From Chitinispirillales bacterium ANBcel5 (GTDB lineage Bacteria > Fibrobacterota > Chitinivibrionia > Chitinivibrionales > Chitinispirillaceae): DNA of 64,000 bases. The position numbers and the translations under genes were made by a program. Of the stretch, positions 56,161 through 62,357 are shown piece by piece. The stretch is taken from positions 186,001 through 250,000 of the forward strand of contig JARUKZ010000001.1 in NCBI GenBank assembly GCA_029688955.1, read 5' to 3'. The stretch's first letter is position 1; every line of letters starts with the position of its first letter. The notes under the pieces were generated by a model. It saw only the letters and a program-made list of their open reading frames with translations. It was not told the origin of the DNA and searched no databases.

Positions 56161-58015
56161 ATGGTGCGATGCTACATCTTTTTTATTGCAGTGATTGGTA
56201 TCCTGTTTTCTGCTAATGGTCAGGATATGGTACGGGGCGGGGAGCTTTTTTCAAGCGATCAACAACTCTATGGCCGTTATGAAGTCAGAATGAAAACTGC
56301 TGAAGGCTCCGGTATCCTCTCGACCTTTTTTACCTTCGAAAATGATAGCTGGATGCCTGAGAGTGGGAACCCCTGGAGAGAGATCGATATCGAGGTGCTT
56401 GGAAGATATGACGACCGGTTTCAGACAAACATCATCACCGGCACAGCGGAGAATAGAGATATGACAGAATATTATCCCAGGGTCGATGTAAATCCTCACG
56501 ATAGTTATAACACCTATGGCATTGAATGGACACCGGATTACATCGCATTTTTCTTTAACGGTGAAGAGGTAAGACGCACCGAACTCGGAGACACGTTAGA
56601 GCAGGTAGAGGCGTGCAGGGATATTCCTCAGTCGTATCGTTTCAATATGTGGACCAATGATATTGAAGAATGGGTTGGTGAGTTCGATCCTGCTATTCTT
56701 CCCAGGTTTCAGTTCATAAACTGGATTAAATATTACTCCTATGATGAGCAAACAGGCGAGTTTTCTCTTGAATGGGAGGATAATTTTGAAACATTTGATT
56801 CTTCCCGTTGGAATAGGGCAACTCATATCATCGAAAACTCCACTCAGTTTGATCCCGAAAACGTAATAAATAAGGATGGGAAACTGATCCTTGCGTTAAC
56901 AGATAGCGATGGCAATGGCCTCGATAATATAGTGGTGCCCCAGGATGAAGCCGATCAGGGTACACCTGCTAATGGGCAGAATATGGTACGGGGCGGGGAG
57001 CTTTTTTCAAGCGATCAACAACTCTATGGCCGTTATGAAGTCAGAATGAAAACTGCTGAAGGCTCCGGTATCCTCTCAACCTTTTTTACCTTCGAAAATG
57101 ATGGCTGGATGCCTGAGAGCGGAAATCCCTGGAGGGAGATCGATATCGAGGTGCTTGGAAAATATGACGACCGGTTTCAGACAAATATCATCACCGGCAC
57201 AGCGGAGAATAGAGATAGGTCAGAATATTACCCCAGAGTCGATGTAAATCCTCACGATAGTTATAACACCTATGGCATTGAATGGACACCGGATTACATC
57301 GCATTTTTCTTTAACGGTGAAGAGGTAAGACGCACCGAACTCGGAGAACCGTTAGAGCAGGTAGAGGCGTGCAGGGATATTCCTCAGTCGTATCGTTTTA
57401 ATATGTGGACCAATGATATTGAAGGATGGGTTGGTGAGTTCGATCCTGCTATTCACCAGATTTCAGTTCATAAACTGGATTAAGTATTACTCCTATGATG
57501 AGCAAACAGGCGAGTTTTCTCTTGAATGGGAGGATAATTTTGAAACATTTGATTCTTCCCGTTGGAATAGGGCAACTCATGTCATCGAAAACTCTACTCA
57601 GTTCGATCCCGAAAACGTAATAAATAAGGATGGGAAACTGATCCTTGCGTTAACAGATAGCGATGGCAACGGCCTCGATAATATAGAGGTACCGCAGGAT
57701 GAAGACGATCAGGGCACCTCTGTTATAAACAGAGCAGGCAACCGTTCAAAAAGCACCAGTTTTTATACTGTGTCTGTTTTAGGAAACACAATGAACATCA
57801 GTACAAATTTTAACGAACAAACTGCACTTAATGTTGATTTACTCGATATCAGAGGAAGAAAAATTACTACTCTTTTGGATCGTAAGATGATAAACGGAGG
57901 AGTACAGCGCATTAGCATCGATATGCCTGCACAGTTTCTGGGCAGCAAAGTGTATCTGGCTCGTTTTACAACACCGCAAGAGTCGGTAGTAAAAAGAGTG
58001 ATAGGGGATCTGTAG
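56161..58015 (+). pseudogene. Tandem-duplicated, circularly permuted GH16 lichenase with a frameshift
   Basis: GGGGAGG precedes the ATG at 56161. A signal peptide leads to two GH16 modules of 252 residues each (starting ~residue 23 and ~275), more than 90% identical. Each has the catalytic REIDIEVLG motif (Glu74/Asp76/Glu78; Glu326/Asp328/Glu330). In both, the strand NFETFDSSRW comes after the catalytic half, the circular permutation known from the Fibrobacter succinogenes 1,3-1,4-beta-glucanase. Copy 2 loses two bases at ~57446-57455 relative to copy 1, so frame 1 stops at 57483 and the correct frame continues from ~57450 to 58015. That part carries the rest of copy 2 and a C-terminal sorting-like domain (LNVDLLDIRGRKITTLLDRK). 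Copy 1 is intact. Confidence 0.88.
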
Positions 58016-58127: not shown

Positions 58128-58706
58128 CTACTCCTCATCTTCATCATCAGAGGGAATCTGATCTTCCAGACATTCAATCACTCTCCTTACTATTCTGGGC
58201 GAGAGAGTGATTCGTGCTTCGGCTTCCCAACTTGGCTCAAATTGTACTTCACCAACTTCTCCATGTTCCCGTAAGATACAGGCTGCAAGGAGTTGTTTGG
58301 AATTATCCAGTGAAGAGGGGGCAAATTCCTGAAGCCTGTCAGCCGCTCTGTTCACAGCACCCTCTTTTGCCTGGTTTACCGCCTGATCAAGATTGCTGTG
58401 ACTTGCTGAGCCAACCGCGATTACTTCCGGATAGCTCTGTAAGCGTCTGGTTTGGGGCATTTCACGTACAAATTTCCACTTGTAGTTTGCCTGTAGGCAC
58501 AAAATCCGTGTATCACTAAGAGTAATATACTGATCTTCATTTCCAGCAGAAGCACCTCTTCTGGTATAACTCCAGGTGCCATCACTGTGAAGCACCACTT
58601 CCTCTCCATCTTCAAGGGTAAGACTCATATCTCCTGCAAAAACTGAAAAAAAGAGAGCAAAACATACAACAATTCCACTACCTTTCACGAAATACCTACT
58701 CAACAT
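58128..58706 (-). CDS. Secreted hypothetical protein
   Basis: 192 residues from the second ATG (58706), which lies seven bases after AAGGA; the ATG six bases earlier is too close. The signal peptide IVVCFALFFSVFAG is followed by SLTLEDGEEVVLHSDGTWSY, a short motif common at the N-terminus of small secreted proteins. A helical region (ASHSNLDQAVNQAKEGAVNR) and an acidic tail (SDDEDEE) follow. Two Cys residues could form a disulfide. No function recognised. It is divergent from the RNA element at 58801. Confidence 0.75.
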   Translation of the reverse strand: MLSRYFVKGSGIVVCFALFFSVFAGDMSLTLEDGEEVVLHSDGTWSYTRRGASAGNEDQYITLSDTRILCLQANYKWKFVREMPQTRRLQSYPEVIAVGSASHSNLDQAVNQAKEGAVNRAADRLQEFAPSSLDNSKQLLAACILREHGEVGEVQFEPSWEAEARITLSPRIVRRVIECLEDQIPSDDEDEE

Positions 58707-58800
58707 AAACATTCCTTTCGCTTGTTGGAAATAGCTTTGGTATTTAAGGTAATATACGAAAAAAGGGAATTAATGGCATAAAGATTTTGAGAAAAGCTTC

Positions 58801-58981
58801 GGTGATAACCTGCAGGGAGGCCACCGAACTTAAACCAGCCCTGTGGAAAGGAGGTGATCCTATTAGCGGCGACAAACTAATGGGAGCCTCCGGCATGGTC
58901 TGTTAAAGGTAGTAGACCTGTTGGAGACTCCCTTACATTGCGGCTGCAGCCTGAAATAATCAGGCTGCAGCCGTTTTTTTT
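58801..58981 (+). ncRNA. Structured RNA with a full 16S-3'-end complement and strong terminator
   Basis: No known RNA family recognised. Contains AAAGGAGGTGATCC (58847-58860), complementary to the whole 3' end of typical 16S rRNA. Then hairpin CCTATTAG/CTAATGGG (58859-58884), and an overlapping, competing stem GGGAGCCTCC/GGAGACTCCC (58882-58891 with 58923-58932) enclosing GGTCT/AGACC. It ends in an excellent terminator. A 14-codon frame from ATT at 58862 (ISGDKLMGASGMVC) sits seven bases after GGAGG, so a peptide starting at ATT is possible. A separate promoter downstream suggests this is its own transcript rather than part of the aroF leader. No clear promoter of its own is seen; TTGGAA-N19-TAATAT near 58725-58755 is weak. 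Confidence 0.55.
58941..58981 (+). terminator. Strong terminator of the structured RNA
   Basis: CGGCTGCAGCCTGA (58941-58954) pairs perfectly with TCAGGCTGCAGCCG (58960-58973) around AATAA, followed by TTTTTTTT. Confidence 0.9.
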
Positions 58982-59008
58982 GCCTGCAGCAGAAACAGCA
59001 AAAAAAAA

Positions 59009-59037
59009 TTGACATGGTTTTTGCAGCAAAATATTTT
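59009..59037 (+). promoter_or_regulatory. Promoter of the aromatic leader-aroF unit
   Basis: TTGACA (59009-59014), 17-base spacer, TATTTT (59032-59037). Transcription would start near 59044, right ahead of the first leader's ribosome site (AGGAGA). It lies between the preceding RNA's terminator and leader 1. Confidence 0.65.
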
Positions 59038-59057
59038 AGGAATTACAGGAGAAAACT

Positions 59058-59111
59058 ATGACTAACTATTTCTACAATGCCGCCTATTTTTACTTTTGGT
59101 TTAAGACCTGA
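59058..59111 (+). CDS. Aromatic leader peptide 1 (attenuator)
   Basis: A 17-residue peptide, MTNYFYNAAYFYFWFKT, with AGGAGA eight bases upstream. Nine of 17 residues are Phe, Tyr or Trp, and YFYFWF is an uninterrupted run near the end. Bases 59072-59081 in the coding region can pair with 59122-59131. After the stop, AGGGGC (59112-59117) equals the right arm of the terminator at 59152, so it can form an antiterminator with the left arm. Ribosome stalling at scarce Phe-, Tyr- or Trp-tRNA would expose it. This is the classic attenuation layout seen for pheL and trpL. Confidence 0.85.
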   Translation: MTNYFYNAAYFYFWFKT

Positions 59112-59151
59112 AGGGGCTTATGGCGTTGTAGTGTGTTTATACAAAGTGCCG

Positions 59152-59178
59152 GGCCCCTCTAAAAAAGGGGCCTTTTTT
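59152..59178 (+). terminator. Attenuator terminator 1
   Basis: GGCCCCT (59152-59158) and AGGGGCC (59166-59172) with TTTTTT after. The left arm is also complementary to AGGGGC at 59112-59117, giving mutually exclusive terminator and antiterminator stems. Confidence 0.88.
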
Positions 59179-59195
59179 GTTTCAGAGGAAAAAAT

Positions 59196-59303
59196 ATGAT
59201 TACTTATAACTCAAACACCGATACTTCATACAATAAAGATGGCTATTTTTGCAGCTTTTTTTACTTTTGGTATTTTAGACTGCCAATCCGGGGGTTGTGT
59301 TGA
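59196..59303 (+). CDS. Aromatic leader peptide 2 (attenuator)
   Basis: A 35-residue peptide with GAGG eight bases upstream of its ATG. Eleven residues are aromatic; the core YFCSFFYFWYF (residues 17-27) holds nine of them. The codon run for FYFW is nearly the same DNA as in leader 1 (TTTTTACTTTTGGT), so the two leaders are paralogous. CCGGGGG (59288-59294), near the end of this frame, repeats the right arm of the following terminator and can pair with its left arm. This is the same antiterminator design as in leader 1. Confidence 0.82.
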   Translation: MITYNSNTDTSYNKDGYFCSFFYFWYFRLPIRGLC

Positions 59304-59333
59304 GGTTATAGTGTAAGCAGATAAACTAACCTT

Positions 59334-59363
59334 AAGGCCCCCGGGAAACCGGGGGCCTTTTTT
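59334..59363 (+). terminator. Attenuator terminator 2
   Basis: AAGGCCCCCGG (59334-59344), loop GAAA, CCGGGGGCCTT (59349-59359), then T-run to 59363. It ends 17 bp before the aroF start. Confidence 0.9.
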
Positions 59364-59380
59364 ATTTAAAGGAGAAAAAT

Positions 59381-60412
59381 ATGGAAAACGCGTCATTACC
59401 ACTGGTTACTCCGGGTGAATTGATGGCTCAGATAACACCATCGGCCACATCTCTTGCCACCATAAAAAAGGGAAGAGCCGATATTGGTGATATTCTTGAT
59501 GGCAAGGATAATCGGCTGCTTTTAATTGTGGGGCCCTGTTCTGTACATGATCCTGACGGTGTTATCGATTACGCCACACGGCTTAATGACTTACGACTGA
59601 AAACCCAGGATCGTTTGATGATTGTGATGCGTCTCTATTTTGAGAAACCACGATCTGTTCTGGGCTGGAAAGGTCTTGTAATGGATCCTGACATGGATGA
59701 TACATGCGATATAGCAAAGGGGCTAAAGGTTGCACGAAATCTGCTTAATAAGATCACTTCCATGGGGCTTGCCTGTGGTATGGAGATGCTTGATCCAATC
59801 ATTTATAACTATCTTGGCGATATGTTAAGCTGGGCTGCAATCGGTGCCCGTACATCCGAATCACAAATTCATCGCCAGGCAGCAAGTGGTATGGAGATAC
59901 CAGTTGGTTTCAAAAACAGTACTGATGGAACCATTGATTCGGCTGTAAGTGCAATAAAATCATCCTCGCATTCCCATTGCTACCCCGGAATCGATACATC
60001 AGGGAGGGTCTGTTTTAAACGTACCTCAGGAAATCCTCACGGGCATCTGATTTTGCGGGGCGGGCGGCATGGTTCTAACTACGATCCTCACTTCTGTGCC
60101 CGTACCTACGATGCACTGAGAAATGAAAATCTACCAGAATCGGTAATTGTTGATTGCAGTCATATGAACAGCAGAAAAGTACACGATAATCAGTTAGGTG
60201 TGTGGAAAGAGGTTTTGAAACGAAGGCATAGCGGGGAAGAAAACCTCAAGGGACTTATGGTTGAGAGTTATTTGCATGAAGGTAATCAGTCTCTGACGGA
60301 AAAAGGCAAGCTTAAGTATGGTGTTTCGGTGACTGATCCTTGTGTAGGATGGGAGAAGACGGTGGAGCTTATAGACTGGACGTGTGATCTTTTGAAGGAT
60401 AGTTTTTTGTAA
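59381..60412 (+). CDS. aroF: 3-deoxy-7-phosphoheptulonate (DAHP) synthase, class I
   Basis: 343 residues, the usual length for AroF/AroG/AroH, with AAAGGAGA upstream. It condenses PEP and erythrose-4-phosphate, the first step of the shikimate pathway to Phe, Tyr and Trp. Hallmarks are LLLIVGPCSVHDPDGVIDYA, YFEKPRSVLGWKGLVMDP, WAAIGARTSESQIHR, PVGFKNSTDGTIDSAVSAI, HLILRGG and VIVDCSHMNSRK, covering the PEP and metal sites. Expression is predicted to be controlled by two tandem aromatic attenuators just upstream. No other aro gene is adjacent. Its last 44 bp overlap the convergent GGDEF gene. Confidence 0.95.
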   Translation: MENASLPLVTPGELMAQITPSATSLATIKKGRADIGDILDGKDNRLLLIVGPCSVHDPDGVIDYATRLNDLRLKTQDRLMIVMRLYFEKPRSVLGWKGLVMDPDMDDTCDIAKGLKVARNLLNKITSMGLACGMEMLDPIIYNYLGDMLSWAAIGARTSESQIHRQAASGMEIPVGFKNSTDGTIDSAVSAIKSSSHSHCYPGIDTSGRVCFKRTSGNPHGHLILRGGRHGSNYDPHFCARTYDALRNENLPESVIVDCSHMNSRKVHDNQLGVWKEVLKRRHSGEENLKGLMVESYLHEGNQSLTEKGKLKYGVSVTDPCVGWEKTVELIDWTCDLLKDSFL

Positions 60413-62357
60413 TTGAGCCTTTAAACGGCTTGTCTCCTTTTGGCTTCACCGGTATATGTTTAGGGGTAGAAGCCCTGTATACCCGGGATGTTTTAAGCGG
60501 AGTACGTAGCTCATTATGCCAAATACAGGTTCTGTTTCTTCCTGAATTTTTTGCGCTGTACAGTGCTTCGTCTGCATGGAAAATAAGTTCATTAAGAGAA
60601 GGGCTGCTTTTATTTAGAAACGATACTCCAAGGCTTATCGAGACAGTAATCCTGTTATTGTGAATGCAAAAAGGGGTAGAGACCACAGTCTGTCGTAGTC
60701 TCTCTGCTACTTCTCTGGCTCTCTGTGGCTCGGTTTCGGGTAAAAGGATAATAAATTCCTCCCCACCATAGCGTCCTATTATATCTAAGCTTCTGAAAAG
60801 ATTTCTGCAGATTTCGGCAATGGATTGAATTACAACATCCCCTGCTGAGTGGCCAAATGTATCGTTTACCAACTTAAAATGATCTATATCAAACATTATT
60901 GCAGAGAGGTTATGATCGTAACGAACCGCCCGCTTGACCTCCTGTTTGGCTTTGTCGAAAAAATGACGATGATTATAAAGGCCTGTTAATGAATCGGTTT
61001 CTGCCTGATGACGTGCTTTTTCAAGTAGCTGAATGGTTCTTATCGCCATAGCAGCCTGCTGGGCAAACATCTGCATCAGCTCCACATCGGCATCCGAAAA
61101 TTCTCGTATGGCATTGTTTTCTGTAACCGAGATAACTCCTACCAGTTTTCCTGCGGCTATAAGCGGGACCGCTACAAGCCCGCTCCACTGAGTGAATGGG
61201 TACTGTGGCAATCTGCCACTTCCAACACCATGACCATGAAGCACAAGAGGCTTACGACTCTTGCCCACATATCCTAAAACATCACTACCAATCTCAATCT
61301 GTTTTCCCGAGCGGTTATCACCTGTGTTAAAAGCAACTTCAATTCGTATCGTATCATCTTTTTTATCTAATAATCCAAGCTCTCCCCCGGTGCCATCAAG
61401 AAGCGAAATGGCTCTGGTTAAAATTGCCTTCAGAAGGTTCTTTGAATTGTGCTCTGCTAACATGTCGGTGAGATTCGCTCGTAAGGCATCAAGCTCGGCA
61501 GCACGTCGCTCTGCCCGTTTTCGGGCTGTGCGCTCGGCTTCTTTAGAGCGTGTAAGGTTTTTTACCAGCATAGTAAAAGACTTTTGAAAGACTATAAAAA
61601 GAGTGATTTTAAAAATCAGAAAAAAGCCGGCTAACCGGGATGAGAATACCAGCAGCCTTACAGTGGTAGGTAATGCTGGTGACAAGGTAAGGGTGACCTC
61701 AGAAAGAAAAAAGAAAAGATGGGCTGCTAAAAGGTTTAAAAAGACCTTACGATCGAATAACGCTTTGGCATATAGTACAACAATAAAAGATAATGGAAGC
61801 ATTATCAAAAAGGGCATATTTGTTACAAATCTGCTTAGTAATGTATTGATCTCAACAAAGTAGATTAAAGCGGTTGAAAGAGAAAGTGTGTAAAAAGCAG
61901 GGATTAGAATTAAAGTTGGAACCATTCGTTTTATGGATGCTTTTTTTTGTGTATATAAAAGTGCGGTAAGGAATATGCTGTTTTGAAAACATCTTGCTGC
62001 GACCTGAAACACTCCTGAAAGAGAGTGCGGGTCACTGGTGAGGCTGCGTGTGATGCTAAAAAGAGTAAGTGTTCCACTAAGCAGTGCCGAAAACCCCAAC
62101 GCAAGAAGAAATGACTCCTTTAAGTACGCCCGGGTATTCCACCCCAGTAAAAAAATGGTTAAGCAGAGGGTTACCGTTAACAGCTCCATGGAAAGTAAAA
62201 TGTTTGTCCCGATAGAGGCAGGGGTTAGGATAACCAAAAATACAAAAAGGATTGGCGGTATATTTTTTATCAGGGATAGGGTCACTGAATAACTCCAAGT
62301 TGGTGGCGATGTGAAAACACCCAGCATACGTAGTAATAGGTGCAAAGGAGGTGCCAT
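60369..62357 (-). CDS. Diguanylate cyclase with membrane and GAF sensor domains
   Basis: About 662 residues from an ATG at 62357; a TTG at 62384 would add nine residues, and neither start has a good ribosome site. Around seven membrane helices (~25-270) form an integral sensor, a short coiled coil follows (~275-315), then a GAF domain (~320-455, LLDGTGGELGLLDKKDDTIR, GLVAVPLIAAGKLVGVISVT). The GGDEF domain (~465-625) has DSLTGLYNHRHFF, MFDIDHFKLVNDTFGHSAGD and the active-site loop RYGGEEF. It should make cyclic di-GMP in response to a membrane or cytoplasmic signal. The basic C-terminal tail is extra and overlaps aroF's 3' end. Confidence 0.92.
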   Translation of the reverse strand: MAPPLHLLLRMLGVFTSPPTWSYSVTLSLIKNIPPILFVFLVILTPASIGTNILLSMELLTVTLCLTIFLLGWNTRAYLKESFLLALGFSALLSGTLTLFSITRSLTSDPHSLSGVFQVAARCFQNSIFLTALLYTQKKASIKRMVPTLILIPAFYTLSLSTALIYFVEINTLLSRFVTNMPFLIMLPLSFIVVLYAKALFDRKVFLNLLAAHLFFFLSEVTLTLSPALPTTVRLLVFSSRLAGFFLIFKITLFIVFQKSFTMLVKNLTRSKEAERTARKRAERRAAELDALRANLTDMLAEHNSKNLLKAILTRAISLLDGTGGELGLLDKKDDTIRIEVAFNTGDNRSGKQIEIGSDVLGYVGKSRKPLVLHGHGVGSGRLPQYPFTQWSGLVAVPLIAAGKLVGVISVTENNAIREFSDADVELMQMFAQQAAMAIRTIQLLEKARHQAETDSLTGLYNHRHFFDKAKQEVKRAVRYDHNLSAIMFDIDHFKLVNDTFGHSAGDVVIQSIAEICRNLFRSLDIIGRYGGEEFIILLPETEPQRAREVAERLRQTVVSTPFCIHNNRITVSISLGVSFLNKSSPSLNELIFHADEALYSAKNSGRNRTCIWHNELRTPLKTSRVYRASTPKHIPVKPKGDKPFKGSITKNYPSKDHTSSL

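Follow-up and report, generated by a model that had tools for sequence, protein, structure and literature searches.

Why should one biosynthetic gene be preceded by two leader peptides of the same kind, each with a terminator of its own? Attenuation is usually drawn in textbooks with one leader and one terminator. In the stretch of DNA analysed here, 64,000 nucleotides in length and referred to as the window, a DAHP synthase gene lies behind two short ORFs rich in codons for phenylalanine, tyrosine and tryptophan. Are both ORFs parts of complete attenuators? Do the two act on the same transcript? Is the arrangement found in relatives, and what could be gained by doubling the switch? We consider that the gene is probably controlled by two complete ribosome-mediated attenuators, back to back, each likely sensing a shortage of Phe-, Tyr- or Trp-tRNA. 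From the sequence comparisons and modelled folds described below we put the probability of this reading at roughly 85%.

Organization of the locus

The gene at 59381..60412 (forward strand, as are the other features of the locus given here) encodes a class I DAHP synthase (3-deoxy-7-phosphoheptulonate synthase) of 343 residues. The class is assigned by a match of 417.5 bits to the aroFGH equivalog TIGR00034, for which the cut-off is 173.2, and the nearest solved structures are those of Tyr-sensitive enzymes. A second class I DAHP synthase in the same genome (L030) shares 39% sequence identity with the first, and a scan of its upstream region revealed no such leader.

A promoter-like sequence, TTGACA-17-TATTTT, occupies 59009..59037 with 10 of 12 matches and is the only forward-strand site to pass the promoter scan between 58961 and 60500. 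The preliminary description called it a good promoter. The site is certainly present, but the match by itself is no evidence since shuffled sequences give as many; positions 58500-60500 hold three promoter-like sites compared to 3.9 ± 1.9 in shuffles.

The first leader ORF, MTNYFYNAAYFYFWFKT (59058..59111), follows a Shine-Dalgarno-like AGGAG (59047..59051) and carries four phenylalanines, four tyrosines and one tryptophan among 17 residues. Terminator 1 (59151..59173) is a hairpin predicted at -14.5 kcal/mol with a T tract behind it. The second leader repeats the scheme, with AGAGGA at 59184..59189, the ORF MITYNSNTDTSYNKDGYFCSFFYFWYFRLPIRGLC at 59196..59303 (five phenylalanines, five tyrosines and one tryptophan in 35 residues) and terminator 2 at 59334..59359, again with a T tract and predicted at -25.0 kcal/mol. 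Both leaders have counterparts in three other genera. The two short ORFs, each with a Shine-Dalgarno sequence and a terminator, therefore lie where the preliminary description had placed them, and its statement that both mix Tyr, Phe and Trp codons is borne out by the counts. Terminator-like sites number five in 58500-60500 as opposed to 1.6 ± 1.3 in shuffles, the strong ones being 59151-59173, 59334-59359 and 58940-58974.

Between each ORF and its terminator, or overlapping the end of the ORF, is a G-rich segment (region 2) able to serve as the antiterminator strand according to the sequence and the predicted fold. In attenuator 1 this is AGGGGCTTAT at 59112..59121, in which AGGGGC is a copy of the right arm of terminator 1; in attenuator 2 it is CCGGGGGTTGTGTT at 59288..59301. 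The motifs singled out previously, AGGGGC at 59112 and CCGGGGG at 59288, are both found. Each attenuator also has a predicted region 1. The first, CTACAATGCC (59072..59081), would pair with GGCGTTGTAG (59122-59131) when the leader is untranslated, and the second (59200..59218) with the region 2 side at a stage when region 3 has yet to be made. Both leaders thus hold a run of codons for products of the pathway within a short ORF, and an intrinsic terminator, judged by sequence and predicted fold, stands between leader and gene.

The third strong terminator belongs to a separate small unit at 58800-58980, consisting of GGAAAGGAGGTGATCC and then the hairpin at 58940-58974. The unit may be a small RNA or a tiny ORF. 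Another genus (G006, L094) carries a 76% match to 58850-58907, there too with a hairpin and a T-rich stretch behind it; comparison of the unit with Rfam gave no family at the gathering score. The element AAAGGAGGTGATCC within GGAAAGGAGGTGATCC also marks the 3′ ends of 16S rRNA in relatives. Further upstream a gene at 56161-58015 carries two near-identical tandem copies of a domain that we take to be glucanase-like, the second of which shifts reading frame near 57413-57483.

How readily would such leaders arise by chance? The window was searched for ORFs 8-60 codons long that have a simple Shine-Dalgarno match, five or more aromatic residues in ten codons and a terminator within 80 nucleotides. 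Over both strands there were two matches, leader 1 and leader 2, and six 64-kb first-order Markov regenerations of the window, searched on the forward strand, produced none. With the requirement raised to at least six aromatic residues, both strands of all the collected loci (581,324 nucleotides, to which three weaker PF04715 loci, L058-L060, contribute as background only) gave 13 matches, all upstream of DAHP synthases, although several represent one place counted twice. The Shine-Dalgarno condition overlooks some of the relatives' leaders that were found in the upstream scan described below.

Predicted folds and codon register

For each of 13 leaders, eight from tandem pairs and five single (see below), the RNA was folded from the leading edge of a ribosome positioned at each codon to the end of the left arm of the terminator. 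Folding with and without a stalled ribosome had been suggested in the preliminary description as a check, and the predicted antiterminator register fits the aromatic run in 13 of 13. Wherever in the run the A site lies, the antiterminator formed by regions 2 and 3 keeps roughly at least 70% of its strength in every case. One to three codons beyond the last aromatic codon it has dropped, again in every case, to less than 60% of its value at that codon. With footprint edges from +12 to +20 the collapse shifts within a range of -1 to +4 codons relative to the last aromatic one, and E. coli pheL, a positive control for the same calculation, displays the same register. In the predicted folds of all 13 leaders, then, the antiterminator is of the mutually exclusive type, free when the ribosome stalls and blocked when it finishes.

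The complementarity of region 2 to its own terminator arm is exemplified by CCGGGGG opposite CCCCCGG in the second attenuator of the window (own_2) and by CTCAGGGG opposite CCCCTGAG in g11_2. Over the eight tandem attenuators the mean predicted energy of this pairing is -16.7 kcal/mol compared to -14.5 kcal/mol when partners are permuted, and a fraction of 0.00055 of 20,000 permutations is as low as the own pairs, a value that is not a strict probability given that the sequences are related. In the full pairing matrix the strongest partner of region 2 is its own arm in just four of 13 rows and five of 13 columns. With the ribosome at the last aromatic codon, g8_2 and g11_2 have a predicted antiterminator of -14.6 kcal/mol against terminators of -22.2 and -22.5 kcal/mol, respectively; being the weaker structure, it would have to form first.

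Leaders that are not translated are predicted to behave differently from the classical case, in which termination occurs in the absence of translation. When RNA beginning six nucleotides before the ATG is folded, the antiterminator is favoured in 11 of the 13, the exceptions being own_1 and g11_2; beginning 25 nucleotides before the ATG, a length that is perhaps in part not transcribed, it is favoured in eight of 13. The first leader of the window has a predicted protector hairpin, 59072-59081 with 59122-59131. As long as region 3 has not been made, the folds have region 2 paired to the leader ORF by five bases or more in 11 of 13, g8_1 and g8_2 being the two that do not. The folds therefore predict that an untranslated leader mostly reads through, and repression would need efficient translation.

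Conservation of the tandem arrangement

A DAHP synthase detected at E ≤ 1e-70 is present in 14 of the 167 genomes of the phylum. Tandem leaders precede four of the 14, all in family f1, namely the enzyme of the window (g1) and those of g8 (62% identical), g11 (53%) and g7 (52%). Put in another way, every family f1 DAHP synthase at least 52% identical to that of the window has a tandem pair, the window's own included (four of four, L001-L004). Comparison of the locus with relatives, a further check proposed in the preliminary description, hence shows tandem leaders conserved in three other genera. A single leader with a terminator occurs in five of the 14, all from g39 in family f10, which amounts to five out of five g39 genomes with upstream sequence. 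The upstream scan found no leader in three (L005, L006 and L008), nor in L007, where just 202 nucleotides upstream could be scanned, and in L041 the gene starts at the end of a contig. Two of these leaderless enzymes, L005 and L007 (the latter with its 202 nucleotides), belong to the same family as the tandem enzymes at 49% identity.

The upstream scan as a whole covered 33 regions, including L001-L025 and L028-L030, with L018 represented by 344 nucleotides; L026, L027 and L041 were excluded on account of too little upstream sequence. Nine of the 33 regions have a leader with at least six aromatic residues in eight codons together with a terminator. In a tree of 30 enzymes the four tandem enzymes constitute one clade (support 100/98) and the five single-leader enzymes another (100/100).

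Across genera, the first leaders resemble each other with a mean z of 10.8 and the second leaders with a mean z of 8.7. The similarity of first to second leaders is 6.5 between genomes and 7.4 within them, and the single leaders score 5.3-5.7 to both. Since first leaders are most like first leaders, and second like second, the pair probably arose before the four genera diverged. The preliminary description had the pair arise by duplication. That is plausible but weakly supported, and it is possible that leader 2 is of independent origin.

Outside the aromatic run the peptides differ widely. The simple Shine-Dalgarno test found no site before g8_1 or g11_1, and the exact starts of g7_1 and g8_1 are uncertain because these leaders begin within a few bases of a predicted -10 box.

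The presence of single leaders of this type in another family, in all five g39 genomes, invites the suggestion that one attenuator of the pair is functional and the other a decaying duplicate. We regard this as improbable: across four genera, with enzymes 52-62% identical to that of the window, both copies have kept the ORF, the aromatic run, the single Trp, the terminator and the register. We return to the reading in which both attenuators are complete.

Outside the phylum, the 600 nucleotides upstream of E. coli aroF contain neither an aromatic leader nor a terminator. Among five named relatives (L031-L035) an aromatic leader with a terminator precedes one, the DAHP synthase of Pseudomonas piscis (L032:2438-2860), with a leader that ends in FYFGYWFSHWRA. 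A second aromatic-rich short ORF (MNYATYYRYDMFSTWRF...) lies downstream of the first in L032 and lacks a T-tailed terminator; this may be an independent and different double leader.

Two attenuators, probably on one transcript

The distance from terminator 1 to leader 2 is 22, 23, 22 and 17 nucleotides in the four tandem genomes, and in none of the four did a scan for sigma-70-like sites detect a same-strand promoter downstream of leader 1 and ahead of the gene. The small gap suggests that both attenuators probably act on one transcript and, taken with the missing promoter, that polymerases at leader 2 should have passed terminator 1. Could each attenuator have a separate promoter, and the two operate on different transcripts rather than in series? 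The scan is blind to promoters of unknown sigma factors, but with 17-23 nucleotides and no sigma-70-like site in four genomes we think this highly unlikely. Three observations support the proposal of two in-line Phe/Tyr/Trp attenuators ahead of a DAHP synthase: four genera share the tandem layout, the predicted register holds in all 13 leaders, and room for a second promoter is lacking.

What the leaders might sense

Each of the 13 leaders has exactly one Trp, three to five Phe and two to five Tyr, and the Trp is placed at or near the end of the aromatic run in every one. The positions of Phe and Tyr vary between genera and the codons differ synonymously, so that aromatic character seems to be the property conserved. 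The mixture fits an enzyme upstream of all three amino acids.

Genes elsewhere in aromatic metabolism were inspected at 16 loci of eight genomes, around pheA-type (PF00800) and trpE-type (PF04715) genes. None of the eight pheA-type loci has a leader. Near one trpE-type gene (L050, genome G041, family f9) there is a candidate Trp leader, WWRW, on the reverse strand about 190-300 nucleotides upstream of the trpE domain match, with a terminator from -153 to -126 relative to that match; it is likely a single trp attenuator in another family of the phylum. The four tandem genomes (L054-L057) show no W-run leader with a terminator within 600 nucleotides upstream of the trpE domain match, and a weak leader match far upstream of the trpE-type gene in L054 was judged to be chance. 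The genome of the window also encodes a TrpR-like protein (G000:C18:22373-22606, L095) with a sub-threshold score of 52.5 bits against a cut-off of 67.25.

Proposed mechanism

We envisage that, in each leader, when Phe, Tyr and Trp are plentiful the ribosome would reach the end of the ORF and cover the G-rich region 2, allowing the terminator to form. If any one of the aromatic aminoacyl-tRNAs were short the ribosome would stall in the Phe/Tyr/Trp run and leave region 2 free to pair with the terminator's left arm, so that the polymerase would continue. As a polymerase has to pass both terminators before the gene, two small probabilities of readthrough would multiply to give the leak. Full starvation would open both and the dynamic range would exceed that of one attenuator. 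For illustration, assuming that 90% of polymerases stop when amino acids are plentiful and 80% pass on starvation, the range is 8-fold for one attenuator and 64-fold for two.

The preliminary description offered either an AND gate or a multiplied range. As the same three amino acids are read in both leaders, multiplied gain and lower leak are the sensible prediction, rather than a gate of different signals; the term AND gate is right only formally, the same amino acids being counted twice. We lean, by a little, to the view that the locus is a natural series amplifier, a pair of the same specificity retained in four genera that would combine near-zero leak with steep induction, and perhaps the first example of amino-acid attenuators acting in series.

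Terminator 2 is predicted to be stronger than terminator 1 in all four pairs (-25.0 and -14.5, -22.2 and -18.6, -22.5 and -18.1, -20.1 and -15.2 kcal/mol), which leaves room for a variant in which the attenuators are tuned to different thresholds or time scales, leader 1 opening on mild shortage and leader 2 on severe. The position of the stop codons agrees with this, as that of leader 1 abuts the G run in the window, g11 and g7 and the ORF of leader 2 reaches or crosses region 2. The leader 1 of g8, however, passes through its own G run, the three amino acids are identical in both leaders, the pairs are four in number and related, and predicted energies are not termination efficiencies. We hold such staging to be conceivable but the less probable arrangement, and prefer multiplication of two like switches.

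Comparison with known systems

Among the closest known systems is E. coli pheL-pheA (RF01859, Phe_leader), which shares a short aromatic leader ORF, a G-rich strand after the stop codon, an intrinsic terminator and the same register. It differs in having a single attenuator with a run of Phe codons only and in controlling chorismate mutase/prephenate dehydratase. The segment 59227-59365 scores 42.8 bits with the Phe_leader model (E 1.3e-5), short of the 55 bits set for gathering; the best score in L002 is 43.2 bits and none of 60 genomes reaches the gathering score. Two tandem attenuators of this type of locus are nevertheless the first and second matches over the 60 genomes. At E ≤ 0.01 six of the eight tandem attenuators are recovered (ranks 1, 2, 4, 12, 17 and 27), with own_1 and g11_1 missed, and sub-threshold matches at that level occur in 27 of the 60 genomes, mostly at other places. 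Sixteen such other loci were followed up (L063-L068, L070-L075 and L077-L080). Thirteen yielded nothing and three (L066, L072 and L080), with weak ORFs of three to four aromatic residues in ten codons, two of them Trp, near a terminator, were judged to be chance.

With respect to the gene controlled, the parallel is Corynebacterium glutamicum aroR-aroF, where a leader peptide with Phe-Tyr-Phe precedes a DAHP synthase gene and is reported to respond to limitation of Phe and not to availability of Tyr; the cited passages describe one leader, the run quoted there is without Trp, and the organism is of another phylum (PMC4046766, PMC11802643). A table for Shewanella lists aroF with an attenuator sensing Tyr-tRNA (PMC2659441).

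Double attenuators are known in other settings. In Salmonella mgtCBR a single leader RNA carries two short ORFs that both serve as attenuators, but the signals are different (ATP and proline) and additive and, in the cited passage, the authors state that the stem-loops do not resemble intrinsic terminators (PMC3641672). The pair before the DAHP synthase is not of that type, since both of its leaders carry codons for the same three amino acids and its hairpins resemble intrinsic terminators. The mefA/msrD system is described as a "double lock" of two leader-peptide attenuators answering one signal, erythromycin, with an intrinsic terminator at msrDL; there the arrest is drug-dependent, no amino-acid codons are involved and the mefA gene lies between the two so that they are not back to back, going by the part of the article cited (PMC10314930).

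Leader RNAs and peptides may also function away from their own gene. The trp leader peptide peTrpL is described as acting in trans (PMC7298713, in the part cited), and terminated leader RNAs or leader peptides from the present locus might do likewise. The features common to the genera, namely terminator, antiterminator and register, are cis features, and the peptides vary outside the run, which makes action in trans very improbable. Control in cis by two attenuators is our preferred reading.

A search of the literature on tandem or double attenuators and on DAHP synthase leaders, of partial coverage and hence weak as evidence, returned no back-to-back amino-acid attenuators of the same specificity. 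An equally partial search on Fibrobacter with leader peptides or attenuation found no report. Single attenuators of this kind are known, and by these searches a back-to-back amino-acid pair of the same specificity appears new.

Implications

If the series amplifier is real, the committed step of aromatic synthesis would be under multiplied termination. The tandem leaders would be the natural counterpart of engineered series attenuators, namely synthetic pT181 attenuators placed two in series; these are controlled by antisense RNA and an improved dynamic range is reported for them in the cited passage (PMC3753616). The occurrence of the same sensor twice, across genera, leads directly to the question of why a switch should be doubled, whether for gain, leak, noise or staged thresholds. 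A paper of 2010 states, in the passage cited, that before its own Firmicutes case all demonstrated leader-peptide systems, barring the atypical ermC leader, came from Proteobacteria and Actinobacteria (PMC2965389). If true, the present reading would bring a poorly studied lineage, and the enzyme at the entry to the shikimate pathway, within the reach of leader-peptide attenuation, with one run of codons reading Phe, Tyr and Trp.
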